The notes under the pieces are model-generated. The model did not search any database. It saw only the letters and a program-made list of their open reading frames with translations, and was not told the origin of the DNA. Below, piece after piece: positions 76 through 20,512 of a stretch of 30,259 nucleotides of DNA (its first letter is position 1; each line of letters starts with the position of its first letter). The translations under genes were made by a program, and so were the position numbers. The DNA comes from Paraglomus occultum (lineage: Eukaryota; Glomeromycota; Glomeromycetes; Paraglomerales; Paraglomeraceae), in contig CAJVPJ010000295.1 in assembly GCA_910592205.1 (NCBI GenBank), forward strand, positions 1 to 30,259, given 5' to 3'.

Positions 76-111
76 TAATATAAGTATATTAAAAATAAAT
101 AAAAAAAAATC

Positions 112-1202
112 GTGGTAAATATTATAGAAAAACAACAAGAAAATAAAGAATTATTAAACGAAATAGAATTATTAAAACAACAATTAGAAGATAAAGATTG
201 AGAACTCAATGATTATAAAAATACAGAAGTAAGTGAACAAGAAGAAGCAGAATTTAAACAAAAAGCAACTGAAAGAATTCACCAAATGTTGGTAGAGATG
301 AGGAACAGGTTTTCTCACTGTAGCAAAAACATTGAACAAGATAAGAGAATTAATTAGCAAACCATTAAGAAAACAGTTTATGAATATTTGTTTTCAACAC
401 AGTTTTATGCATGACTATAATTGGAAAAAAAGAAGAATTTGGAAAAAGTTGTAGAGAGAATTGTAATAGACCATTTTGAAAGCACCGAGTTAGCTACAGA
501 CTTGTTAAAAGATTGAAAAAAATGAAATAAAAAAATCTCATATTTTTGTTCGAATAAAAGAAGGAGGTGAAATCTTGGTAAGTATAAGGATATAATTTTT
601 AAAGATATTATTGGTAGTAAGAATAAAAAAATTAAAGAGTTGGAAGCAAAGTAGAAGAATTAGAAGAAAAAGTAGAAGGTTTGGAAGATAATTTAGAAAT
701 GGAACGTGAAGAAGCTGAGAAAGCATTGAATACAGCCATGAAGTGGAGAGAACGCCAAATGAAAGAAGTAAAAATCAATCAATGTTTCGAGAGAGAAGTG
801 TTTTTAAAAAAAATAGAAGTTTTAGAAAATAACATTAATTGATTAAGAAATAAAAAACAAGTTGTCAAAAAATATGAGAATAAAGAAATCCAATCTCTTA
901 CTGAAAGTGAATTAATTTCTTGATCTTTCAGTTCTCGTTTAGAAAGAGAACTAGCAAACTAGAAAAAGAGTTAATGACTACTAAAGAGGAATTAAACATT
1001 AAAAGAGAGAAAGTTGCTAAATTTCATAAAAAGTCAAAGGAGTGAAGTAAAAGCAAAAGAAAGAGTTGCTGGATAAGATTAAAAAACAGGAAGCAGAAAT
1101 TATTAAATTAACCCAAGAAAACCAAGACTTAAAAATGGTCAAGTTGCTCAAGTAGAAGTTAAGGAGCCTAGGAAATGACCTTGATTGAAATTAAGAAAAT
1201 AA
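112..1202 (+). pseudogene. Broken coiled-coil coding region using TGA as Trp (mollicute-like insert)
   Basis: Under the standard code nothing is open here. With TGA read as Trp, long Lys/Glu/Leu/Asn-rich coiled-coil frames appear: 121-354 (frame 1), 421-651 (frame 1), 651-959 (frame 3), 959-1042 (frame 2) and 1134-1202. Well-supported in-frame TGAs are at 199, 514, 523, 840, 921, 1176 and 1182, against one TGG (744). Examples are LLKDWKKWNKK around 505-534 and EPRKWPWLKLRK followed by TAA at 1200. Frames are interrupted by TAG (355, 652, 960), TAA (418) and small shifts, so the copy is decayed or the assembly has indels. Known: mycoplasmas and the mycoplasma-related endobacteria of Glomeromycotina use TGA for Trp. 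Inferred: a nuclear insertion of endobacterial DNA, a mis-joined endobacterial read, or mitochondrial DNA (same codon change). The protein family is not recognised. There are no membrane segments and no introns. Confidence 0.6.
561..577 (+). promoter_or_regulatory. Shine-Dalgarno-like AAGGAGGTGA before a TTG
   Basis: AAGGAGGTGA at 561-570 is complementary to the bacterial 16S anti-SD tail and is followed 4 nt later by TTG (575-577). Just upstream, one frame ends with a TAA inside GAATAAAAG, so this may be the junction of two tandem bacterial genes. The reading frame after the TTG closes quickly, while the coiled-coil frame resumes one base off, consistent with an indel. Such a site has no role in a fungal nuclear gene. 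Confidence 0.4.
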
Positions 1203-3365
1203 TTGTTCTTTTTTTAGAATGCTTCTAATGGTGCTGTAATTTTTGGGTTTCATGGTGGATTTAATGTAAATTAGTTTCATATACTTTATTTTTATATATA
1301 GGGACAGTCCTATATTAATCCTGTTATGGTTTATATTCATCACATTCTGGTATGTAAAGGGAACATTAAAATTAACAAGTCCATAAGCTATGGATGAGCA
1401 CCATTATTACTTTTCAAAACGTCATCAGTTGCACTGGTCAATTTTACAGCCACATCTCTCATTTATGTCACATAATAAAATGTTCACTTTGTCTGGTTTT
1501 GTTGCAGCATGCCCCATTTACTAATTAATTTTCAAAAACTCTAGATATAGTGGATTTTTGAGAATTTTTTGCTAATAGATTTTTTTTGATACACTACTTA
1601 ATTCTAATACAAAATTGCCATTGAAAAATTTTTTTGTTGTATGTCGATTGAAATCTATGTCAGTTCCGTTCCAATTTGTGCCGTGCGGATTAAATTCACT
1701 CGAGCGGATCGGAACAGGAACGACAAATTTGTAATGTCCGTTTGTTTCCATCCCCACCACACGCACATTTTATTAATAAGTGTAAAAAAAATAAAAAGTT
1801 GTATTGCGCAAAATGGTCCTAATGGCTTTCGGAAATATATCCCGTCAAATGACCCAAAATTTCTTACTAAAGACCCCAAAATAAAAACCGTTCAAATACC
1901 GTCGATAATATTTGTACTGCTACCAAACGTTACCATACGCTACCATAATTCTTTAAGCTCACATCGCTCTATGACTTTTCACTCACAACTATGCCCCAGT
2001 CTCACCTATTCACTAAGAGGACATCAAAGTTCCGGAACTACTATTATTAAGCTTAGAATAAATATTTGCTCAGACCACGTATAGAAAGCAGTCGTATAAA
2101 CTAAAAATCCCAAATGTGATTAATAAGAATGACTTATGTTATTATCTTACAAATAAATTTATAATTGAAAAATGGGGTGACACTTAATTTGGTAATAGCA
2201 GGCTTTACATAAAACACATATGTTGTTATATTGACTTACAGAAGTGATCAACTCTGAATGTCTTCTAGTATGGTAAAATTGTTAGTTTGTGAGTTTGATG
2301 ATAAACTGGAATAAGCAATCATAGTAAGACCGGGCGGGCGTAGGCAAGTCAAAGCGTAAGGTCAGCGTAAGGTCAGCGTGAGCTTAAAGACTAAGACGTT
2401 ATGTTATTCTATTAAAAATAGCAAAAGTGTAATGCTTGGTAACGATACAAATACAACTTGTTCTTTATCGTGGTATTTGAGACGGTTTTTGTTTTAGGGA
2501 CCTTGACAAGAAATTTTGGGGACATTTACATATACCAATATTAATATACATTTCTGTACACTTGAAGTCTTAAAAACAACGAAACGGGGAACGTTCTTAA
2601 TTTTCCCTGATTGATACAATTGGGGGACGGAATATGGCTACAGATTCCATTCCGAATAGACCAATAGTAAGACAATAATCAGTGTAGAGCTGGGATGTTG
2701 AGCAATTGATTCAGGAGGTTACGTTTTGGTGTTATAGTGATCTGATCATATGATGTTTATTTGCATACCGTATAGGAAGGAATAGTATTGTGACCGGTTA
2801 CAAGACCATATTATTAATACAATTCGTAAAAAAGATTCGAGGCAATTTTGTATTGGCAGATGTATCATAGAAATCGACGGTAACAATAAAATGGTGCCGT
2901 TCGGAAATCAGACAATAATATACACAATATCGTAAAAATCTTGATTTAAGTATGAGCGCATTGAACGTGAAGACAAGTTCGTTCGAAATAAGTATAAGTT
3001 TCAATTGAGACAAGACTTTTTTTGGATCTGAAGTAAAAAATTAATAACGAGTCATCTTTTATTTTACTAATTACTAATTCCATCATACTCTTTTTTATTA
3101 CTAAGTATTCCCAATTGAGCCTTTATTTATTAATATTAAGGACTTCTTTTAAAACTGATGGATATAACCCCCTTTTATTATTTTTATTTCCATGTCTTAT
3201 AGACCAGGCATGTAAAATTCGACCATTAAAAAGAGATTCGATTTTATAGAGGATTCCTAATGCACCTGCCTCTGCTAGTAAAGTCATTGTTTCTGGCGAG
3301 AGATTATAATTATAATAATACTTGGGTATAATAATAGTCATCAATTTCTGTAATTATCATATTGA
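1203..3365. other. Non-genic AT-rich stretch with short repeats
   Basis: No convincing gene is seen. 1478-1516 is one arm of a 39-bp repeat whose inverted copy is at 30111-30149. 2353-2380 has two and a half tandem copies of an 11-bp unit, AGCGTAAGGTC. Two minus-strand frames (1572-1766, containing FVVPVPIRS, and 3123-3344, containing LSPETMTLLAEAGALG) have protein-like composition, but I recognise no family and they may be transposon remnants. Confidence 0.5.
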
Positions 3366-3467
3366 GGTATGGTGCGCCAGAGTCGTCAAAAGTCTGTGTT
3401 TGAAATACTGATTTTCTGTATTATATTTAAAGCAGATTCTGAAAAATGCGGAATTTCAGTACTTTTC
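3366..3467 (+). repeat. Left copy of a ~100-bp inverted repeat pair
   Basis: This stretch matches the reverse complement of 6631-6753. Shared words include GCCAGAGTCGTCAAAAGTCT, GATTTTCTGTATT and TGAAAAATGCGG. The two copies bracket the HECT-ligase remnant and the first Tc1-like element, so they could be the termini or long repeats of a larger degenerate mobile element. The copies differ by several indels. Confidence 0.75.
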
Positions 3468-3599
3468 ATCCAATCATTTCGTAGCACAAAAATATACATT
3501 TATGGAAAACTAAACGCCAAATGACGTACACTTTTCGACATTTCAGTCTGTTATTTATTTAAGAAACGGTATAACGAGGACGGTTATTTAGATTGGGAA

Positions 3600-3900
3600 C
3601 AAGTGAATGACTGAAAGCATGATGGAAAGGTAATAGAGCGATTGAAAGTAGAAAAACGAAAAAGTGAGAATTGAAATAGTGAGCGATTGAAAGAGTGCAA
3701 GTAATTACAAGAGGAGTGAATGAGAGCGGGAGGGTGAGTTTGAAAGTGATCGAAAGAAAGAGAAGCGCAATAGCTAGAGAAAAGAATAATTAAACAAAGG
3801 TGTGAGCAATGGGAAGAGAATTGAACAGTGAAGGGAAAGTGATTCGGAGAATGGTTGGGAGAATGATTGTGAGAATGGTTGGGGAAGGTGATCGGGAAGA
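3600..3900 (+). repeat. Purine-rich degenerate minisatellite
   Basis: This G/A-rich stretch has recurring words: GAGCGATTGAAAG at about 3637 and 3681, and GAGAATGGTTGGG, nearly repeated, around 3845-3885. It precedes the HECT remnant. The open frame on the opposite strand (Ser/Phe/Pro-rich) is a by-product of this repeat. Confidence 0.45.
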
Positions 3901-4014
3901 GGTTGGGGTATCAGCGATACGGTCCAGACTTTTTGGGACCAAGCACGACGGTGGAGTTGTCGCAGATTAGGCAGGATCTTTGACGATAGGACAATCAGTA
4001 GGCGATCGGTAGTA

Positions 4015-5012
4015 GGAAGCTCGCCATATCCAGAAAGGTTCGGAAAACTATTAGGATGGACAATCATGCACGAACTTCCTGGACCAATGTGGCTTGCGCC
4101 ATACGTATTGGACTATCTGTTCGGTGTCGAAAGTGATGAAGAGAAGGAGGTTGTCGGCAAATGGACCTGATTGATTTCCATGAGTTCACAGATGTGAAAT
4201 TTTGAACTGGCTGAATGAGGTGGCTGATCATTTCCTAAAAGACATTATTCCAGCAAGCCTATTGGCCTATGCAGAGGAAATTGACATTACTCGTAGTCAG
4301 TTGGGGGAGTTTGAGTGAATTTAGACGCTTAGTAATAACGCATGAACTGTACGCGTGTCGATCTGGTAGTCTGGAGAAATTACGTCTTGGTTCTGATTGT
4401 GTGCGCGATTGGATATCAGTTCCGGGGATGGATGTCAACTTGGATGGAGAATCATTGTGTGAGGTTTGTATTTACTCGATCAATTGATTCTTTATCGGAG
4501 ATTTCAATATTCTAATTACTATTTCTTAATGTAGTTGCTAAAACCTCGGTTAAATGATATCAAAGGCGATTGATTATACGCCAATCAGTTAACGCGCGAG
4601 AGATTTGTGGCCATGTTCGACTGGAGAAATGTGGAGCGAAACTTGAGCGCAGTAACAAGAAACTGAGGTGATGTTGTCTCTTGGTTGCGTGAATTTATAC
4701 AAGAGATGGAGACTGAGGAAGAACGGTCTGACATCCTAAAATTTATCACTGGTTCCCGCGTTGCAGCCTTCGATAGGAGCATCAGGGTAAGTAATACATT
4801 AAGTGCAATAAATTATTATTTAGAGTTTAGCATTAACAATATTAACGATGCTTTGTCAATCCATACGCGACCTTCCTCACCCATATAATAGATATGCGGG
4901 CTCCTACACATGCACCTCAACTCTGGAAATTTGTAGTAGCTACCGTAACGATGACAAAGAAAACTTTTTCACAGAGTTGAGGAGGAATGCGGTGAAGGGT
5001 TTAATGAAATAG
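4015..5012 (+). pseudogene. HECT-type E3 ubiquitin ligase, decayed
   Basis: HECT ligases take ubiquitin onto a C-lobe cysteine and pass it to substrates. Fragments in order: N-lobe-like FGKLLGWTIMHELPGP (4015-4170, ends in TGA), DIIPASLLAYAEEIDITR (4202-4318), a segment ending at a donor at 4464, an exon 4535-4786 containing DILKFITGS, and a last exon 4824-5012 with YAGSYTCTSTLEI. The TGC at 4911-4913 is the expected catalytic Cys and lies 33 codons before the stop, the usual spacing. Introns 4464-4534 (GT..AG) and 4787-4823 (GTAAGT..AG) are both phase 0. Lesions: in-frame TGAs at 4571 and 4664 inside an otherwise open exon, a TGA at 4316, and frame changes between fragments. The two exon TGAs could be former CGA (Arg) codons. 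The N-terminal part before 4015 cannot be followed. I am fairly sure of the family, and the gene looks dead. Confidence 0.72.
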
Positions 5013-5292: not shown

Positions 5293-6603
5293 CAGTTAAT
5301 ATAAAGTATCGGTCACCCTAACTTTATTAATTGCTCAAAAGTGTACATAATAATTGGGACTAAAATTTTTATATGTTATAGTCTAACTTGTTATGAATCT
5401 ATATTAATATATGAAATTAATACTTTGTTGGCCAGCCCTTGCTTGCAGTACATGCTTCGACCCTTCTAGGCATACTTTTAATTAAATTCATTAAAACATT
5501 GTTGGGAATTTGGCTCCATTCCTCCTGTAATGCTGTCTCGAGTTCCCTTACATTGTCGAACGGTTTCTAATGCGTCTTTCCGGTTCTGACCATAAATGTT
5601 CAATAGGGTTCAAATCTGGTGATTGGCTTGGCCAATTAGGTAAAGTTCTGATCTTCCTTTCTGCAACCCATTCATTAACATCTTTCGCAGTGTGAATGGA
5701 GACATTGTCATCTTGAAACAAATACCCTTTTTCACCAAAATCTCTTCTAATCAATGGTAATAAATGGGTTTTAAGTATTTGAATATAATCGAATCTGTTA
5801 TTCACTTTTACCAATGGGCCTAAGCCTTTACTAGAAAAACAACCCCACATCATCAAACGTCCACCCCCATATTTAACTGAAGGAGCCATATTTTCTATAT
5901 TAAATCTTGTTCCAGGGGTTCTCGAAACACGACCTGGTCCATCATTCTTGAATATTGTAAAGCGACTTTCTTCACTCCAAATAACAGACTTTCATTTTCC
6001 AATAGACCAATCCTTTCTTTCAATACACCGATTTTCTCTTTGCCGATCAGTAAGTAAAGGCTTGGATGTGGAATGCGAGAAAAAAAATTAATTTCGTGTA
6101 AATTTCTCCTAATAGTTTTAGTAGAAACATCCAGTCCGGTTCTTTCATTAAACAGTTTTTTGAGTCGTTCAGCTGATTTTTTGTTGCTTTGCTTAACAAC
6201 ACTTGCTTATTATTATGCTCAAAATTTAAAAATTTTGGGCGGCTATTGCGTGGTTGGGTTGTGAGACTTTTTCTTTCGAGAAAAATTTTGAATTGTTCTA
6301 GGAAAGCCAAGCGTCTTAGATATGCTCGTTTTTGTAGTGCCACTTTTAAAAAGCCCAACAATTTGGCCGCGTTCAGCTTCAGTTAATATTAAGTCAGACA
6401 TTTTCAAAGTGAAGATTAAAAATTAACTGATTCGGTTTATTATATTGCTTACAGAAGAAATAAATATAAACAACGCGTCAAAAATATATGCGCGTTTTAT
6501 AACAAGTTAGACTATAACATATAAAAATTTTAGTCCCAATTATTATGTACACTTTTGAGCAATTAATAAAGTTAGGGTGACCGATACCTTTGTCCAGATA
6601 GTG
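5293..6603. mobile_element. Tc1/mariner-type element 1 with ~100-bp TIRs
   Basis: Long terminal inverted repeats, about 5293-5394 and 6499-6603, share GTATCGGTCACCCTAAC and continue to CTAACTTGTTAT. The right end reads CACTATCTGGACAAAG on the complement and is flanked by TA (6604-6605). The left terminus has diverged, so its exact first base is uncertain. Length is about 1.3 kb, normal for Tc1. It carries one broken transposase on the minus strand and lies inside the 3366/6631 inverted-repeat pair, only ~28 bp from the right copy, so it probably nested there. Confidence 0.9.
5417..6401 (-). pseudogene. Tc1-like DDE transposase, broken (element 1)
   Basis: This is a cut-and-paste transposase relic. 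It starts at the ATG at 6401 (MSDLILTEAERGQIVGLF, an HTH region), continues through several stops and frame changes, and ends at a TAA at 5417-5419 (GWPTKY). The catalytic core is open at 5548-5889: MMWGCFSSKG, LFQDDNVSIHTA and SPDLNPIEHLW, with 35 residues between the second Asp and the Glu. The first acidic position, usually WSDES, reads WSEES, an Asp-to-Glu change, and an in-frame TGA lies just before it. A further frame change near 5550 restores a C-terminus containing LQEEWSQIP. It is non-functional as it stands. Confidence 0.9.
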
Positions 6604-8322: not shown

Positions 8323-9586
8323 CAGTGTGTTAAGAAAAAAATTGGCCTCTGCTTTTTTTGCAATAACTTCATAGAAACTGCTTCAAATTTAACATAAAAT
8401 GGCTTGTTTGAAAGCTACAAAGCAAGGTTTTTATTGGTATAAAAACTTATTTTATTAATAATTAATTCGTTCACCATTATTGTCTATTACTTGCTGACAA
8501 CGGTCACGCATTGATGAAATAAGGTTGGTCAAAAATTCATCGGGAATATTTTCCCACTCCTCTACCATATATTGCTGTAGTTCAAAAATATTACTTGGCA
8601 TACGTTTTTCAACACGATATTTAACAATTTCCCACAGATTTTCAATAGGATTAAGGTCTGGACTATTAGAAGGCCATTCCATAACCTCAGGGAAGTTTTC
8701 TTTTAAAAACTCCTTGGCTACCCGGCTTGTATGCTTCGGGTCATTGTCCTGTTGAAATCTCCACCTTCTTCCAAGCATTCTCCTGATTTCTGGACGATGT
8801 TCCTCCAAAATTTGTGTAAAGTCTTGCATCCATGATGCCTGTAAAACAGTGTAAACTGGTTTTGCCCTTGGCATAAAACCCACCCTAGGCGAAAACTTTT
8901 TGGCGATTTTTAGGAAGAGGCCGTATTGGTCTAGGACCTTTATACCAAACTGATATTGTATTTCTGAACAGTTGAAAAGCTGTTTCATCCGAAAATAAGG
9001 TCCTCTCCCATTGATCGTTTAAGTGGTTTGTGGCCCATGCAACTCGATTTGCCTTTTGGTCAGCTGTTAGCATTGGTGTGCCATTTGGAAAGCCACTTTT
9101 ATAACCAAGCTCTCTTAAACGTGTTCCAATTGTTACATGTGATACTTCAGCTCCATCCCCAGAAAGTTTGGTGGCCAAGGTTCGCAAGGATAGGGTATTA
9201 CCTTTACGAATGTATTGCTTAAGCTCACGCAATTTATTGGACTCTATTTTCTTGCGACGTCCATTACCTCGCCTATGCAAAACATTGCCAGTTTTTTTTT
9301 TTTTAATTTTTGAATATTATACTTAATTGTTGAAAGGGAAATGCCAGTAATTTTGTGTCCATTATTCAAAAAATGCATAAGTGTTTGGCGTTGAGAATTA
9401 AGCTTGTTTTCAGTCATCTTTAAAGGACAAAGAATAAAGTTTAAGAGCTCAAAATTGAAATCAAATGCAAATATTAGTATTTGTTTTTGTTTTCAAAAAG
9501 GACCAGACGCGTTTATTTTACTCAATATGGTAAGGACGCGCTTTAAATTTCACATGTCTAGAGGCCATTTTTTTCTTAACACACTG
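8323..9586. mobile_element. Tc1/mariner-type element 2 with TA duplications
   Basis: The element begins CAGTGTGTTAAGAAAAAA at 8323 and ends with the reverse complement of the same sequence at 9586. The ~27-bp terminal repeats differ by one base in the A run. It is flanked by TA at 8321-8322 and 9587-9588, the exact Tc1/mariner target duplication. It is 1264 bp long and holds one transposase gene on the minus strand. It has no long inverted repeats and its transposase differs from element 1, so it is a separate family. Well-preserved ends and only a few coding lesions suggest it is younger than element 1. Confidence 0.95.
8455..9417 (-). pseudogene. Tc1-like DD34E transposase, lightly damaged (element 2)
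   Basis: The transposase spans about 321 codons from the ATG at 9417 (MTENKLNSQRQTLMHFL) to the stop at 8455. The full triad is visible: FSDETAF, WRFQQDNDPKHTS and SPDLNPIENLWEIVK, with exactly 34 residues between the second Asp and the Glu. Three lesions break it: a frame change at a 13-base A/T homopolymer at 9292-9304, a TAG at 8885-8887 in the place of a conserved Trp (VFA-stop-GGF), and a frame change near 8818-8835. The first could be an assembly error. With one substitution and two indels, this copy lost function recently or is a non-autonomous member moved in trans. Confidence 0.92.
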
Positions 9587-11282: not shown

Positions 11283-12797
11283 CTATACTCTCCATTTAAC
11301 AAAAACCTCGTCCGTTCTATATCTAATGTTGAGATTCAAAACTCGGGTTAATGTTTGTTACAAATATTTGGGAAAACCAGGTCCACATCTTTTAATATTA
11401 TACCTTTGAGTACAGGTTGATTCTTCGAGCGGCGTTGTGTATCCTGATCTAAATGCCAGCAACCCAGCATGGGCAATCATAATGCCGTTGTCTATGCAAT
11501 ATCTGGTATTATCAAACGTTAGCCAAGAAACAGCGTTTACATTACAGTCTATACAAGACCTACCTTTCATCGGTTGCAAACACTTTTCCACCTCGTTGTT
11601 CAGCCATCTGAGCCATCATACTCTGTAATCGAAGATTGCATCCGACACCTCCAACAATCAGCACCTCTTTGCTCCCAATATGTGCCATTGCCCGTTCAGT
11701 TGTTTCTACCAACATTGCAAACAATGTCTCCTGAAGAGAAAAGCATAGATCTTCAGGGGTGCATTCATTTCTTGAAAGGAGGTCAGGCGCTATTGATTCT
11801 ATGTAAGATAATATTCCAGAGAACGATACATCCATGCCTTTGACTGTGTATGGTAGCTCTATAAACTTTTCACCACTAAACGGTCAAACCAAAGTGATAT
11901 ACGAGTTAAATACATATAATCCTCTGGAGTACAAAATATATCTATAATGAAATCCTAACCGTTTAGCAAATTGCTCGATATTATACCCCGGGCTAGGATC
12001 GTTCGGAAGATTTAAAACCCTAGCGAAACGATCAAGACAATTACCCACGGCTATATCCAGCGTCTCTCCAAAGATTCTGTAACTATAGACGAGAGGACCA
12101 AGAAAACGCGATATTAACTAAACGTCTCGTCTTGACCAAGCGATAGAAAACCGGATTGTTTCCAAAATACCGCTGCTCGGCATAAGCAATGACTTGAGTG
12201 TTCCCACCGCTAACGTAAAGCACAACAGGATTGTCAGCTCCAGTCACTTGTCGACCCATTTCAATGTCTTACGGAGATGTCTTTACGTGAGATAGGAACG
12301 CGGCCCATTTAGTCACAAAACTCAATATAAGCGTGTATGTATATGTTAAAAACTTACGTCCAACGCAATGGTTAACTCCAACAAGAGGTTTGTTCCATAA
12401 CAAGGACAGCGTTCTCGCCACGACAGCAACAGATATCAATGGCGCACCCATACCTGGTCCTGTTTGATAAATGAATGCGATGAACAATTCGTTTTTTCCC
12501 CCCTATGAATTGATTGTCTGATAACACACCTTTAGTATAGCAGATAACGTCAATGTCTTCGGTTTCTACCCCAGCAACCTTCAGTGCCTCAGTTAGTACA
12601 GGAAGAATATGTTCTCTGTGGTGAGCTGCCGTATCGCGAGGCAAAAAGCCAGTCCCAGGTGGCGTTATATGCGTATGTCTTATGTTTGAGAGTATCTCCA
12701 CCGCACCGGTAGAGACATCATGCGAGATCACACCCACGCCCAGTTTGTTAGCGGAGCCCTCCAACCCAAGTGCAATCAGGACATTATTAGGTTTCAT
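11283..12797 (-). CDS. KAE1: KEOPS complex tRNA N6-threonylcarbamoyladenosine synthase subunit Kae1/OSGEP
   Basis: Kae1 is the catalytic subunit of KEOPS. It transfers threonylcarbamoyl to A37 of ANN-decoding tRNAs in cytosol and nucleus. Seven exons (minus): 12797-12530, 12459-12358, 12267-12171, 12082-11960, 11875-11564, 11502-11404 and 11316-11283, giving 344 aa, the normal size. Visible landmarks: [13 protein letters not shown] at the N-terminus, metal-binding HHREH with His59 and His63, [15 protein letters not shown] (141-148), [11 protein letters not shown], and the Asp of [12 protein letters not shown] (Asp305), the third metal ligand. It lacks a mitochondrial presequence, so it is the cytosolic Kae1 rather than Qri7. 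The last exon is 34 nt and encodes [11 protein letters not shown]. All junctions preserve phase. The gene follows the Bye1-like gene on the same strand with a 280-bp gap. Confidence 0.95.
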
Positions 12798-13077
12798 TAG
12801 TTCGGTCTTTTTTTTTTATTTCTCAATATTCTACTTGTAAGTGAATTAAACAAAATTTTTCTAAGCAAAAAAAATAACAAAATTCCGTCAAATGAAATCG
12901 TAGAATCGATTTGTACAGGAACAACAGCAGCAACAATAACGAAAAGAGTAAAGCATAAAGACAAAAGAATTTACATGCAATTTAACAATGTATCCAACAA
13001 CCATTAAACAGTTCTCAAAAAATAGAACGTACGTAACATTACATTCTATTTCTATACAAATACTAGAATAAATTCCT
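12798..13077 (-). other. Intergenic spacer between the Bye1-like and Kae1 genes
   Basis: This 280-bp AT-rich spacer must hold the 3' end of the Bye1-like gene and the promoter of Kae1. It contains a T run at about 12811-12820. No further gene is seen. Confidence 0.4.
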
Positions 13078-16000
13078 TTAATCCCAGCGTCGGGTATACC
13101 CTCGACGCGCACGTCCACCACGTGATCCACCACTAGATGTTCCAATAACCTCCTTTCTCTCTTTTCTACCAGATTCTTCTCTCTCAACCCATCGTTCACG
13201 ATCTGTCCCATCTCTATCTGCTGCTCTACCTATACCACCACGGCGATTACCACGGTGTGGCAATGCGTTTCTACGTCCATTACCACGCGATGTAAGAGGA
13301 CGACCTCCTCGGCGGGGTGGTGAAAATGTGCGATATCGATCGGAATGCGGAGGCGATACGCTACGCCTATGCTCTCTTTCCCACGTTGGTCTTCTATCAT
13401 CCCAAGGATTTGGCTCACGATCATCAGGCCACATCTGCTGTCGATGCTTTTCTTCCCAAGACACTCTTTCATCGGATCCCCATTGCCTTTGATCTATCTG
13501 ATTCCAGGGTCTTGACTCGCGTGTAGGGGGCATGAATTGATTAAAGGATGGCGGTGGTTGTTGTCCTGGCTGTGACGGAGGTAATGTTTGTTGCAACTGT
13601 CTTTCTGGCGATATCGATGTGGGTGGATGCGGCGCTACGTTTTGTGCGTTCTGTGGAGCATAATATTGATTAAATATAGGTGGCTGCTGATACGATGGCG
13701 GAGTTGTCTGATATGGCTGTGGTTGACTGGCAGATGCTGCTGGTGGGGCAGCTGGGTAGGCACTATTAAATATTGTACCTTGCTGTTGAGGCGCGGGCAA
13801 TGCAATGGGTGGAGTGCCCGACTGTTGGGGAGGTAACGACATTGATGGAGTGCTCTGTTGGAGATTAGGCATTGTTAGAGGTGGTGCGTTTTGTTGCGGC
13901 ATGGGTACTGGGACGGGTTGAGCGTTTGGTTGCTGTGATGTGGGCATTGGCAACGGTATCGATCCCATGTCATAACCGTAGACTATTTTAGAAGTAGGAG
14001 TTTGGGATATGTTCGAAGGTTGGTTGAGATAGGGCTGTACTATTCCATGGGAAACGTCATTTTGGGACGGCCGCCCTGTCCATAGAGAGCCATAAGCTGC
14101 TGTCTCATTGACATTTCGCTGAGATTTCGAATCATCTATGCCGTGACTAGTCGGATAGTTAGAGCTATGCTCACTAATTGGTAAAATGGTTTGGGAGTCC
14201 GTTTTCTCTTTCTTTGCAATCGCAGCACTCAATGATGATTGTGGCTTACGTTTTGAAGATGGGGTCTTAATTATAACTATTACAGCCAACATTATATTTG
14301 TATCCCTTTGTTCCGGCACTTCATCGATTTCCAATATCTGAATAAATTCAGGCGTTTCATCATGCGGCGCAAGTGGCACAAGATACATATCTTTCACAGC
14401 AGCAAATCTATGTCCTACTACTCCAAAACGTTCGCGAGAATGGAAATAATCAAACAAGAGTTCAAACTGTTCCCGAGACTCTGTCCCTTCAATTGGTGAT
14501 ATTTGTATAACTACCACATCTTTTGTCACCGAGCATCCTTGTTGCGATAAATATCGCGATGCATCGTCAATTTTTATTCGTCCTTCGATAAACATGGTTG
14601 GAGTCATAATTTGACTCCAATCACGATTCTGAATTGTTCGTGCCGCGACTAAAGTCGCTTCAGCCTTGAAATCGGCAACAGTGTTGTAAATGACTTGCCC
14701 ACTCCAAACTGGTTTATTGGGTAGAACTTTTCCTGTGGATGGCGAATGGGGTGGAGATGGAGATGCCGTAAACGGGGGGGTGTTCCCAATTGAATCTGTT
14801 GTACTCGGAGACAGTGCCGTCATAGGGGACCCCATGTACGGACTTGGCTCTTCTAATGTGGGCTCTGGAGCCGAAGGATCCCATGCAGCCTCATCAGGTG
14901 ACCTTTTATCAGCGGAAGGAGAATCACTCGCACTAAGTCTTCGTAGCATCTGATCAAGACTACTATTCGTTGTTCTGGGAGAAACCGTATTGTCCTTTGA
15001 GTCTGCTCCGGCAAATGACGACGAACTATCGCCAGTATTAGATCTTTGCGGTAGTCTAGTCCTAAAGGAAGACGAAGTAGGCGATATCAATGACTTGTCA
15101 TCATTTGGCTTTTGGTCGTCTTTGGAATTATCGGGTCCGGGTGATGATGATCTTCCGCCGACAATTATAAATTCTCCTTTATGTGTCTTCTTTATCCTTG
15201 GCTCATGTACTGGGGCCTGCAGGACAGACTTGTTAATGCTTTCTCTTCTTATTTTCTCAGTCATTGATTTTAATTCTGGATTGGCTAGGTCTTCTGATGA
15301 CATATTAACTAATTTTTCTGGAAATATATCACCCCTGACTACTTTCAATCTCAAAGAACTGTTTTTCTTGTCTTTGAGATTAGTATATAGACTTCTAAAC
15401 TTTGATTTGTATGGTTGGTCACATGTCACGGGTATTCCATTGCTGTTCTTTGTGGCAAAATTGTTGAACATAGCAAATTCTATATCCCGTGCCAGTTTCT
15501 CTGCTTTAGCAAGATGCTCTCCATCAGAGCCAGACATATCGTTATTCTTGGTTAGGTCAGCAAATAAGGGAGTAAATATATCAGTGAACTGTTTAATAGA
15601 TAAATTTCGAATACGATCTTTCACTGGGACCGCATTAATCTCAGTATTTGGAGACGGAGCAGACTGTTTTGACATTGTATTCAATTTGAGTTCTGGGACA
15701 GTTGTTGGTTTAATTTCCTGTATGACTGATTGAACAGGTGGAGTAGATTGAATAGATGGAGTAGATTGTGTAGATTGAGCATGTTCAACAGACTCAACAG
15801 ACTCAACAGATAGAGCAAGTGGAAGAGGTTTCGTAGGGGCATTAAGTGGTGTGGATCCTTGTTGTGGCTCCATCTGCCCAGCGATCCGTTTCAACACGTT
15901 ATCGGCATCCATTACTGCACAGTTATCGCTACAGTAAGCATCTTTCTCGCGTGCCTCACCTTGGCACCCTGGATAAAGGCAGTTTTTCTTCTGTTTTGAT

Positions 16001-17472
16001 GAAATGTAAAAAAAGTGATGAACATAAAAATGAATGACGGATCACGGGCTGAAATAACACATTTGCATACTTACTGGACCGTCGATGTCCATCTTGACAA
16101 TGTTGTCACCGCCAATAACGATTGATTCGAAATGCTCGTCCTTCACTGCAGCGTCGAAATTCCCGTCTATCAAAACGAAGAAAGACAATATGGTTTGATG
16201 GATTAGATCTGTGGGTCAATTACGATTACAATACTATATTAAGATATATATATATGAGATGTGGCTCTATCAGCAAACTACAATCTATTCTAGGTTGCCG
16301 GATACAGGATCGGCTAATCTGTTGATAATACATATCCTCGTTGCTGCTTATTTTGCATCCCAATGAACGACTCTTGGGGCGTTGAGAAAAAATTTTCCAT
16401 AATGTACGGATTTTAAACGTACTCTTAACAAAAATGCGTTTTATCAAAACGGTGGTCTTGAAAGGCGCAGCACGAGGTGAATACAGGTAAAGGCTTTTTA
16501 AATCAGTTATGGGATACGCTCAAACTCAGATAGGACAAGTTGATAGACACCCGTTATCATCAACATCAGAGGGGAACGAAGATATTACAAACGGATCATC
16601 AAAACGAGAACAGGAAAAACAAATGAACTGATAGTTGAACAAAACTGCAAAAATACACTGAACAAGAGCCACATCCTTGATAGAAAAAAGAACGACAGAA
16701 ATAATAGTCATACCAGTTGGTATGGCAACTTGATTTAGTGGATTGCAAACTGGACAGTAATATTTCCTTATTTTATCGGCTTTTGCCTTTGTCAACTTCA
16801 CGCACGCTAGATGATACCTAATAGAAATAGGGGGGTGAAGAAAATGATGTCAATATTGACCAATCAACGCCAAAGTATCTAAACGAGTCTCATCACACCC
16901 CGATAAAACTAAGAGTATATGTACCATTCTCTACACTTGTCACATTGAATCATCATTCGATGGTCATCTGGTTTACGGCATAGACAATACACCTCCCCTT
17001 GCCCTTCCCCCTGGTTTTCCCTACTCGCAGGAATTCTCATGTGACTCGTATCAGAGTCCTCGCTCTGTTTTGACTGCGCTGCATTTTCAGCTCGACTAGC
17101 AGATCTTGTCTTGTATGAATGTCCGTGTTTTGAGTGTATATTTTGATTATTAGTATCACTCTTACCAATAAGACGATGATTATTATTACTATGATTATTA
17201 TTACTATTCTCATCAGCCTCCTGTACTGTTATTAGGGCAGGATTGATGACAGACTCTGTACAGTTTGTGTTTATGAACGCTGGTTGCGCTTCGTTAAGAT
17301 CTGCGGGGGCAACTGGAAGCTCTTCATACGCGTCCCAGTTTCCTTGAGTAAGGGGGAGCTGAGATGCGGGTGATGTGTCTTCCCAGATCCCGGGTGTAGC
17401 GGTTAACGTATTATCACTAAAGTTAAAGTCTGGTAAAAAATTCATATCGCTAAAAGAACTACCGTTCTCCAT
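13078..17472 (-). CDS. BYE1: Bye1-like transcription elongation regulator: PHD + TFIIS-like + SPOC
   Basis: Four exons (minus): 17472-16925, 16817-16714, 16166-16075 and 15990-13078, giving 1218 aa. The PHD finger is C4HC3: Cys163, Cys165, Cys177, Cys180, His185, Cys188, Cys204 and Cys207, and it spans the first intron. A small Cys cluster follows at 252-272 (C-x4-C-x10-C-x3-C, ending YCSDNC), like the one after the PHD of Spp1/CFP1. Then a TFIIS-like central domain (about 371-502) and a SPOC domain (about 674-822, starting VWSGQVIYN). The tail is Pro/Gln-rich and then Arg/Gly/Ser-rich (RGGRARRGYTRRWD). The PHD, TFIIS-like and SPOC order defines Bye1/PHF3/DIDO, nuclear factors that bind H3K4me3 and RNA polymerase II. 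Yeast Bye1 is roughly half this length, and the RGG/RS-like tail is extra. The start ATG is the first of the open frame, but an upstream untranslated exon cannot be excluded. Confidence 0.9.
15725..15815 (-). repeat. Coding minisatellite in the Bye1-like gene
   Basis: Short imperfect tandem repeats (AGACTCAAC and related) encode VESVESVE and QSTPSIQSTPPVQS in the linker between the Cys cluster and the TFIIS-like domain. Such Ser/Thr/Pro linker repeats are likely length-variable between strains. Confidence 0.6.
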
Positions 17473-19041
17473 AACATATGACGAACTGAAGCAACTTGAA
17501 GAATGGAGTACAACAGTTGGAACTGCAAAGTAAAAAAATAGACGACAATGACGTCATTGGACAACGAATAGCATGTTAGCAACGTACAAACACGTGACCG
17601 GAACACATAATAAATCCGTTCCAGTTAACCAATGTGATCGATCCTCGGTCGGTACCTCGATCGATGATTCATATTGAATCTTACATCGTAATATTAATTG
17701 CTAATTAATGATAGTAAGTGAATAGGTTATCAACCTTGTATTATCGAGTCGAGATTAATTGATGGATCGTACGTCCCTTTATTATTTATCAGCCGGTAAT
17801 TGCAAACCATTTACTTAACACGAAGAGTCATTGCACTAAAACTCGGATAGTAACTAAGCTTGGTGGTACCCCAGCTGTAAACAGAAAGTCGCTATATTTA
17901 CTGCTATTGCTATTACTATTACGTGATAAACAGATGCGGATTATATCGGCATTCCTTGTAACAAGTTACTTGAAATAAAAAGGTCCATCACTCGTCTCAC
18001 GTATTTTTATTGAATATGAATTTAACAAACTTTACACATATTGCGTTTGTAATTGTATCAAGCTAAGCTTATTTAATTTATGCGGGTACTATCTATATAC
18101 GAATTCTATTCTATTAATATTAATATGGAAAATTGGTTATTTATCCACATTTAAACCACCTTATATTTCGTGTTCTTCGTTTCTCTCATTTGCTATACGT
18201 TGACTTTCTCTCGTTGACATAATGTCCAGCACAAGTTCTTTTCACGATAACAATTTGTATCTAATAATAGAATAGCTCATTATAATAATTAAGTTTTTAT
18301 GCGCATAAATTAATTCACATTTCCCTGGTCTCGGAGTAAACCATTAATTCTTTATTTTAAGAGCGATACATTGAACACACGCTTAGTATACTCCGACCTT
18401 TATATGTAAGCGACTAATCCCATCGATAGAGATGAGAATAAATAAAAATTTAAAATGTCGAGTACATTTCATACTAACAATGTAATACTTTCACCGAACT
18501 GGTGACTATTTAATTAACGCATGGAATTCTGAAATTAAATATGACTTTTCTGGTTGTTTGTGGCTATTAGGAGCGTACCAATTGATACTTTTTTATACTT
18601 TTATGTTGCCCAAATGTAATTTAGAGATGGGGTATTAATATCAATAACAATAAGGTTAAAAAACAACTCTTCGAGTATATCAACAAAACGGGTATATTAT
18701 GTAATATACTGTATACTAATACTGTCTTTTTGCAGCAATCACATCGCATATTTCGTAAAAACTTTGAATATATAATTCCAAGTTAATTTATATACAAAAT
18801 ATTGAATTGTAACAATCGTATATAAATATGTTGTTATTATAATTATGAATTCATTTCCTCTGTGTGGCTGATAAGAGTTTCGTATACATTTGAGTCAGTG
18901 ACGTGTTGACAATTTTCAACTCGAGAGGTAACATTTTTTTATTCTATCGTACCAATTTACATTTTTACATTCAAGTGAGTAATATTATCGACGTTCCCTA
19001 CATTATATGAAGCATTAATTTTGAAAAGTAATCATAATATT
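17473..19041. other. 1.6-kb AT-rich spacer upstream of the Bye1-like gene
   Basis: No open frame of note, RNA gene or transposon end is visible. It lies between the Leo1 stop and the Bye1-like start codon, both genes being on the minus strand, so it holds the Leo1 3' region and the Bye1-like promoter. A short CpG-containing patch (GATCGATCCTCGGTCGGTAC) occurs at about 17637-17656. Confidence 0.4.
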
Positions 19042-20512
19042 TTACTTTTCGTCACCAGCAAAAATCCTTGCCCTCTTCTTCGGTCTTTTAATAACAACTA
19101 CATCGTCCTCGTCTTCATCCTCATCATCCTGTCCCTCTTCTTCTGCACCATTATCAGCCACCCTTTCCATATCTACATCATCATCAACCTCTACACCATC
19201 AAGTTCAGCCATGTTCTCTTCCTCTTCCTCTGTTGCTGCTTCGATCTCTGCTCCAGCATCCGCTTCCTCCTCTTCAACTTCCTCCTCCATCTCCTCCTCC
19301 TCCTCCTCCTCTTCTTCAATTTCCTTCTCAGGTGTAGATGTTACATTATAATCATATTCTTCCCTAGCACCAGTGACCGTCCTTCTCCTGCGGTGTGCCT
19401 CACGACGTCGCTCCCTTTCTTCTTCTTCACGTTCTACTTCTTCATCACTAACAACGAAATCACCCCCATCCTCGTACGAATCATTTCGACTACGATATAT
19501 TGGACGAATATCTTCTTCTAAATAATCATCCTCCCTGGCACGACGAGATTCGTATGCCTTTCGTGAACGACGATAGTCGGCTCGTCGTTGAGCGCGGATT
19601 TGCTCTTTCTCGGCCTAATTACAGTCAGATATGGTTAAAAGTTACGACGATAATATGAGATATTGGGCAAATTACCTTGGCCAGTTCGAGTTTCCGTAAC
19701 TCTGGATCTCTGTCGGTTGCTACCATTCTTGTTTTTATTTGTTTTACATGTCTCGACGCAATTACAGCGGCAATCTTACGATGCGTTGATCCAGTTGTGC
19801 CAAAAGGCTTTACTGTCACCTGATCGGTTAATCGGCCTTGCATCTCCATTATACTTTCGTTGGGATAATTGGTGGAGAGGTATTGGAATTGAGAATGCAA
19901 ACTTGTAATTGACATGTCAAACAGCTCTTCACCAACCAATAGAGACATTGATCCATCTGACCAGCGTACAATTTTGGTATTTGTCTGTTTTTTAATTTCG
20001 TCAGTGGAGCTGTTGCGTATTTCGCGCCATCTTATTGTGTTCTCTCCTGCTAGTTTTATCCCGTCTTTACTCTCCATCTCTTCCTTATCATCATACTCGT
20101 TAGGTACAAAAGGTTTTGTATTGACAGAGAGAAAGTTTGGGACCTTCATCACGTAATATTTATTATCAAGACCAAGCGAGAGTTTCCTTTGATCGAATGC
20201 CACCGTATCATATGTTTCCTCCTCGCCATATTCCCGCACACTTGATGGATCACCAGGCTCAAAAGTGCCAGAGTCTGGTAAATCTTCCAGGTTATTTTGT
20301 TCTTGTCTGTCTGCGGCTTCGCCTTCATCTTCGCTAGTGTCTGTTCCAAACAGTTCAGCGAATTGATTCCTAGTGTCCTCTATTTGTGCGTCGTCGCCCG
20401 AATCGCGTGGCGATGAGGATGCATCCTTAGGAGACACCTCTGTAAGAGCAGAGGCACGAGCACCGGGCAGATCTTCGTCGTTGTCGCTATTAGGTGTAGG
20501 TGTGTCGGCCAT
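19042..20512 (-). CDS. LEO1: RNA polymerase-associated protein Leo1 (Paf1 complex)
   Basis: Leo1 is a subunit of the Paf1 complex, which travels with RNA polymerase II and promotes H2B ubiquitination and H3K4/K36 methylation. Two exons: 20512-19676 and 19614-19042, separated by a 61-nt phase-0 intron, give 469 aa, close to yeast Leo1. An acidic, Ser-rich N-terminus precedes the Leo1 core (about 100-275), containing YYVMKVPNFLSVNTKPF, TIRWRE, IVRWSDGSMSLLVGEELFD and SRHVKQIKTRMV. The second exon encodes a basic helix (RAQRRADYRRSRKAYESRRA) and then a long Glu/Asp tail with a run of about ten Glu, ending in a basic NLS-like KRPKKRAR. The poly-Glu tract is encoded by a GAG/GAA microsatellite (about 19262-19320). 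The gene is divergent from the membrane-protein gene at 22305. Confidence 0.94.

Follow-up and report, generated by a model that had tools for sequence, protein, structure and literature searches.

The analysed stretch of DNA (the window) is the 30,259-nucleotide contig CAJVPJ010000295.1 of the glomeromycete fungus Paraglomus occultum (assembly GCA_910592205.1; C295 among its 1408 contigs, which total 32,299,718 bases), and its positions 101-1520 hold a single copy, decayed and with an internal deletion, of a family of interspersed elements. The initial annotation had seen, at 112-1202, a single decaying insertion of an endobacterial gene in which TGA encodes tryptophan (Trp). A search of the assembly contigs gave 36 DNA matches for this stretch, itself included, and it is therefore a repeat and not a unique insertion; the multi-copy family rules out the single decaying insertion. 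Of the two limits first proposed, the start held, as position 112 is the start of open reading frame (ORF) 2 in the relatives, whereas the end did not, as the element continues to about 1520.

The copy opens with the remnant of ORF2 (101-884, plus strand), a coiled-coil-like protein in broken frames whose start codon at 112 is GTG in the window and ATG in the relatives, and its left limit is known only to the approximation that homology to the element starts at 101-105. DNA matches link this remnant to L037 (101-204), L035 (105-190) and L027 (626-762), and a protein match links window 621-968 to ORF2 of L026 (L-numbers denote 40 loci that we fetched from the assembly, chosen for matching, and C-numbers denote contigs). 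A deletion near 885 fuses it to the second half of ORF3 (885-1202, plus strand), which retains the coiled coil and the KWPWLKLRK end and is devoid of the Cys-array N-terminal half. On the minus strand follow the first 17 codons of ORF4 (MKPKNYSTIRSILKKEQ, 1203-1253), truncated by the ORF3 end, a cut form found identically in L025, L059 and L034. The right end of the element (1203-1520), for which 40 of 545 candidates were scored and yielded 46 matches, finishes in a sharp terminus, ...GGTTTTGTTGCAGCATGCCCCATtTA, past which lies unrelated host sequence. A second right-end copy occupies the other end of the contig (30112-30259, minus strand), comprising the terminus, an internal deletion and the C-terminal end of ORF4 (KPRKKRKLET) before it runs off the contig. 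One metagenome protein, P0026, spans pieces of the window copy from two frames, and homology ruled out chance coiled-coil frames.

Composition and spread of the element family

The better copies hold a DUF7869 gene, a pair of coiled-coil-like genes, of which one has a Cys array, a gene of 76 amino acids and the sharp right terminus. In L027, located on C1, ORF4 comes first (322-549, minus strand), followed by the DUF7869 gene (ATG near 690, to 2456; 590 amino acids, with Trp written as four TGA and one TGG and no other stop), then ORF2, coiled-coil-like by eye, a frame-shifted ORF3 and the right terminus at about 4062; the same order of DUF7869 gene end, ORF2, ORF3 and right end was found in L059 and L055. 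Intact relatives of ORF3 measure 185-216 amino acids; the intact ORF3 proteins, of about 190-200, combine a conserved Cys array with a charged, helical segment and end in KRWPWLKVKK, with C19, C22, C53, C56, C68, C71, C81 and C83 invariant in four sequences, and Pfam returned sub-threshold hits only, to zinc-ribbon and coiled-coil families. The 76-residue ORF4 carries a basic EPRKKRKLEE-like end in L060, L027 and L032, altered in L043, and forms of the conserved tail include EPRKKRKLEE, APRKKRKLEE and EPRKKRKIEE; its fold model was too weak (predicted local distance difference test score, pLDDT, 55.6) and was not used. NCBIfam gave no match for five proteins, Rfam gave none on the window at the gathering threshold, and a tRNA search of the window and the 40 fetched loci was negative.

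Two further observations concern the gene content of individual copies. Upstream of the right end of L060, to the left of ORF4, lies an open stretch with TGAs and an acidic DDEEEDDD tail, possibly further cargo. L043 harbors, beside its ORF3 copy, a 407-amino-acid ORF free of TGA (3188-4408, minus strand), which had no Pfam match in the standard reading and by eye resembles part of a type-B DNA polymerase.

The right terminus is shared across the family, with 35 of 42 right-end stretches in the fetched loci, self included (34 of the 41 others), ending at query positions 1514-1530 before differing flanks. A terminal inverted repeat was looked for and not found, and no inverted copy of the right terminus was found at the left of L027 or L032. 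In total, at least 93 DUF7869 matches were scored (from 707 first-look candidates), along with 150 matches of the right-end gene (from 353 candidates). That these are nuclear insertions is indicated by the terminus standing against differing flanks and by fungal genes in the same fetched loci, within a few kilobases of the copies: Rax2 and an SH3 protein at L027, PGAP1 at L036, a kinase at L038, DNA polymerase delta subunit 4 at L033 and a 60KD_IMP (Oxa1-type) protein at L051. The copy on C1 sits mid-contig, at 97-101 of 146 kilobases. Searches of the assembly for DnaA and for COX1 were both empty, and no mitochondrial contig was found. On G000:C771, two DUF7869 matches of equal score (608-1150 and 8899-9441) lie about 8.3 kilobases apart, marking a duplicated stretch.

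TGA as tryptophan in the element genes

To read the code of these genes, we aligned 120 metagenome relatives of ORF3 to the 40 loci and the window using tblastn, which yielded 55 non-overlapping stretches with 102 Trp columns; the codon there was TGA in 70, TGG in 12, TAA in 2, TAG in none and another in 18. Because scoring with genetic code 4, in which TGA is Trp, favours such pairs, the alignment was repeated with TGA scored as a stop, whereupon 53 of 78 TGAs met Trp, as did 2 of 48 TAAs, with no TAG-Trp pair among the printed residues. Measured against standard-code DUF7869 relatives (about 40% identity), the signal was weak and of the same sign, with 5 of 27 TGAs at Trp, 5 at Phe and 5 at Tyr. 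Among the 93 genomic DUF7869 matches, TGA was the sole stop type in 26, TAA in 5 and TAG in none, while many others have decayed with all three stops (196 TGA, 76 TAG and 150 TAA in total). We considered that TGG might have decayed to TGA through C-to-T change and rejected this as the main cause because TAG is absent from the Trp columns (0 of 102; TAA, 2). As judged from these alignments, TGA evidently stands for Trp in the element genes.

In the window itself, all seven TGAs listed by the initial annotation were found at their positions (199, 514 and 523 in frame 1; 840, 921, 1176 and 1182 in frame 3), as were the frame-3 TGG at 744 and the KWPWLKLRK end preceding TAA 1200. The list was incomplete, missing TGAs at 412 and 568 (frame 1), 975 (frame 3) and 1043 (frame 2), and the frames, described as otherwise open, contain internal TAA and TAG codons (e.g., at 355 and 418 in frame 1 and at 960 and 972 in frame 3). 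The assignment of the seven to Trp gained support for four: 921, 1176 and 1182 align with Trp of P0026, which is intact, and 840 aligns with a Trp that copy L026 encodes as TGG. It was contradicted at 199, which aligns with CAA (Gln) in L037, the sole copy comparable there, and no convincing relative covers 514 and 523. Regarding the TGAs not listed, 1043 falls within a KSKEW motif written with TGA in 11 of 12 pattern-found copies and with TGG in the remaining one, and 975 aligns with Met. The conserved Trp codons of the ORF2 remnant are TGG 744 and TGA 840, and TGA 921, 1043, 1176 and 1182 stand at Trp columns of the ORF3 remnant.

The ratio of nonsynonymous to synonymous divergence (dN/dS) among six ORF3 copies (15 pairs, 11 of them defined) ranged from 0.14 to 0.69, with 9 pairs at or under 0.37, bearing in mind that silent sites are often saturated and that dN is raised by the frame-shifted tail of L055. 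Among seven ORF4 copies (two partial; 21 pairs, 15 defined) it was 0.05-0.23. The purifying selection on intact ORF3 copies means that they diverged mostly in a setting where, unlike in the nucleus, TGA was translated as Trp. This divergence favours many arrivals over the amplification of dead copies and is compatible with some nuclear spread.

The host genes, in turn, use the standard code: ten host ORFs contain 48 TGG and no internal TGA, and that of Leo1 ends in TGA. The claim of code-4 coding DNA inside a standard-code fungal genome is thus upheld, both by TGA at Trp columns and by the code of the host ORFs. Three of the host genes lie outside the element at 12375-20512 (minus strand) and encode a TsaD/OSGEP-like protein, a TFIIS-M plus SPOC protein and Leo1, with the stop codons TAA, TAA and TGA; from their presence at 12-20 kilobases the contig is therefore fungal. 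As for the remainder of the window, positions 1-100 form a left flank that is a different, GC-richer repeat with 33 matches (itself included), many of them a few hundred bases from contig ends; the repeat at 1-90, mostly found at contig ends, is perhaps a cause of contig breaks. Beside the element, 1856-2528 matches a repeat on C1382 at 74% and has a short inverted repeat (1853-1908 / 2465-2520), making it another transposon-like repeat. ORFs unrelated to the element are present on the minus strand at 8455-9280 and 5548-5889, which, going by their motifs, we take to resemble Tc1/mariner-type transposases.

The DUF7869 protein and its relatives

The large ORF of L027 was identified as DUF7869 (Pfam PF25273) with 62.8 bits, compared to a curated cut-off of 26 (E 4.3e-17). 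This domain has no curated function, and the open-access literature searched held 0 papers on it. Its predicted model adopts an RNase-H-like fold with integrase-core matches, and D312, D391 and D433, invariant across 38 aligned DUF7869 proteins, may form the catalytic triad. The model thus appears to share with DDE transposases and integrases (TnsB, Mos1 and retroviral integrase) an RNase-H-like core whose Asp residues sit where expected, although, unlike them, the protein has no sequence match in the PDB. DUF7869 is presumably what moves the element. Proteins of Glomeromycotina, of animals and of scattered metagenome-assembled genomes (MAGs) have the same domain, alignable over nearly the full length and at about 33-43% identity to many; the clade described here differs in being written with TGA for Trp and in travelling with ORF2-ORF4. 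In one metagenome protein, P0290, DUF7869 is interrupted by a leucine-rich-repeat domain (PF12799), of a kind that PMC10507103 reports near genes of mycoplasma-related endobacteria (MRE).

A DUF7869 search gave 519 relatives, and the best 120 of these include proteins of Ambispora leptoticha, Geosiphon pyriformis, Diversispora eburnea and Gigaspora rosea. The nearest named code-4 relative was I3273_02745 of Candidatus Moeniiplasma glomeromycotorum (52% identity over 56% of the query), and a search from it added I3273_07265 of the same organism, together with Cetraspora and additional entries from Ambispora, Geosiphon and Diversispora epigaea. The link to Moeniiplasma that had been proposed gains support through DUF7869, the best-identified protein partner. 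The MAG contigs on which the Moeniiplasma proteins are annotated measure 124,773 and 27,320 bases, and the Geosiphon contigs that bear relatives reach 1,191,207 and 923,699 bases. In a 50-row tree, this genome's copy and fungal entries formed a 17-row clade (100/99), whose sister, a 14-row clade (100/99), contains both Moeniiplasma proteins; jointly they make up 31 rows (100/97), outside which fall the Rhizophagus and Gigaspora proteins that we took as standard-code. The two Moeniiplasma proteins therefore share the 31-row clade with the element's DUF7869 but belong to the sister clade, are shorter (329 and 231 amino acids) and are known here from protein sequences alone. I3273_07265 shares 88% identity with an Ambispora entry, reflecting either recent exchange or contamination.

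The annotated fungal proteins bear a trace of the code as well. In 14 of them, 37 of 56 Trp columns within the span were missing, compared to 1495 of 6602 other columns (columns not being independent), and six metagenome proteins missed 0 Trp columns; gene models in the Ambispora, Geosiphon, Diversispora and Gigaspora assemblies tend to skip Trp columns. An ORF3 profile drew 412 protein clusters at E 0.01, the best 120 of which come from JGI, ENA, NCBI and Logan assemblies and sit on contigs no longer than 8112 bases. A phage or plasmid may still be involved, although tblastn with P0126 returned nothing from 50,697 phage records and 72,556 plasmid records.

Origin of the element

The best reading of these data, and in our judgement a probable one, is that this is a code-4 mobile element of endobacteria that has entered fungal nuclei many times. 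The element, equipped with a transposase-like DUF7869 gene of DDE type and with accessory genes, would reside in Moeniiplasma-type code-4 endobacteria, and copies of it would have inserted repeatedly into fungal chromosomes. Because the host reads TGA as a stop, the inserted copies would be dead on arrival as genes and would then decay, and the window would hold one decayed, deleted copy and the tip of a second. We infer both the endobacterial donor, which itself was not seen, and many arrivals rather than few.

Several points weigh against an endobacterial origin. The Moeniiplasma sequences are sister to the fungal copies, which are not nested inside them, and the evidence from the Moeniiplasma MAG amounts to two protein sequences, which may stem from host contamination; PMC11423566 and PMC10507103 caution that MRE assemblies can contain fungal contigs, and fungal assemblies MRE contigs. 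ORF2-ORF4 were found in no named bacterium (for ORF3, among the best 120 of 412 relatives), scans of IMG/VR with A2 and the DUF7869 protein gave no locus, and neither did scans of GTDB, a collection from which the Moeniiplasma MAG DNA is absent. Selection on ORF4 is uninformative on the code used, because most copies have no Trp. The GC content of the L027 element is 35.7%, and 40% at DUF7869 third positions, not lower than in host genes (34-39%); it is 27% in the window copy and 30% in L059, and MRE assemblies have 29-33% according to PMC11423566. Base composition does not point to the endobacterium as donor.

One or a few ancient transfers, followed by nuclear amplification through proteins of the fungus's own standard-code DUF7869 relatives, strike us as rather unlikely. 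Rhizophagus and Gigaspora do possess DUF7869 proteins that look standard-code, with identities of about 40%, C771 carries its duplicated stretch, and very many right-end copies come with little else, as is the case for non-autonomous elements. Yet the copies are 40-92% alike in protein, their differences mostly silent and TGA kept as Trp, a pattern that dead nuclear copies would not give. Nuclear amplification could nevertheless explain part of the right-end copies. Also unlikely is an inter-kingdom transposon, whereby the endobacterial element would send itself into the host nucleus using its own 76-amino-acid right-end protein; the conserved ORF4 tail looks like a nuclear localisation signal, and the sharp right end with variable left truncation would then be the trace of delivery, by analogy with T-DNA.

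Fungal mitochondria also read TGA as Trp, and the element might have come from fungal mitochondrial DNA or a mitochondrial plasmid, its copies being nuclear mitochondrial insertions. The shared code and the 35.7% GC of L027, atypical of MRE, agree with this source, but a Moeniiplasma MAG carries annotated DUF7869 relatives and no mitochondrial protein is among the listed DUF7869 names, leaving this alternative, also raised by the initial annotation, quite unlikely. It is very improbable that these TGAs are decoded as Trp by the fungus, through a suppressor tRNA or read-through, so that the element would function as a transposon of the nucleus: TGA is indeed the only stop in many right-end genes and in some DUF7869 pieces, but the ten host ORFs have no internal TGA, Leo1 terminates with it and the tRNA search was negative. 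Finally, endobacterial contigs or chimeras in the fungal assembly are hardly credible, for although MRE contigs in Glomeromycotina assemblies are documented in PMC10507103 and PMC11423566 and both copies in the window lie at contig ends, the same element ends abut differing flanks, copies occur mid-contig next to fungal genes (e.g., on C1) and relatives on the large Geosiphon contigs, most copies have decayed with TAA, TAG and frame shifts, unlike live bacterial genes, and DnaA was not found.

A code-4 element of endobacteria lodged in fungal nuclei would resemble Wolbachia DNA in insect chromosomes (e.g., of Drosophila ananassae), likewise endosymbiont DNA lodged and multiplied in the chromosomes of its host, but there large genome pieces of ordinary code are involved, and here a defined mobile element that is written in a variant code and occupies hundreds of sites. 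The bacterial genes of Rhizophagus irregularis described in PMC5982333 likewise represent transfer from bacteria to an arbuscular mycorrhizal fungus; gene flow between endobacterium and fungus is documented mainly from fungus to bacterium in PMC10507103 and PMC5982333. Within the open-access literature, subscription papers being outside the scope, we found no account of mobile DNA in code 4 residing in the nucleus of a fungus.

With a bacterial code retained in the chromosomes of a fungus, a multi-copy element of this kind would provide a dated record of flow from bacterium to fungus, one that can be read because nuclear selection cannot have acted on its TGA codons. Annotation is affected too, since Glomeromycotina gene models tend to omit the Trp columns, and the metagenome proteins of the family, the ORF3 clusters included, may be host-nuclear and not bacterial. 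The code itself would offer a way to count endosymbiont insertions.
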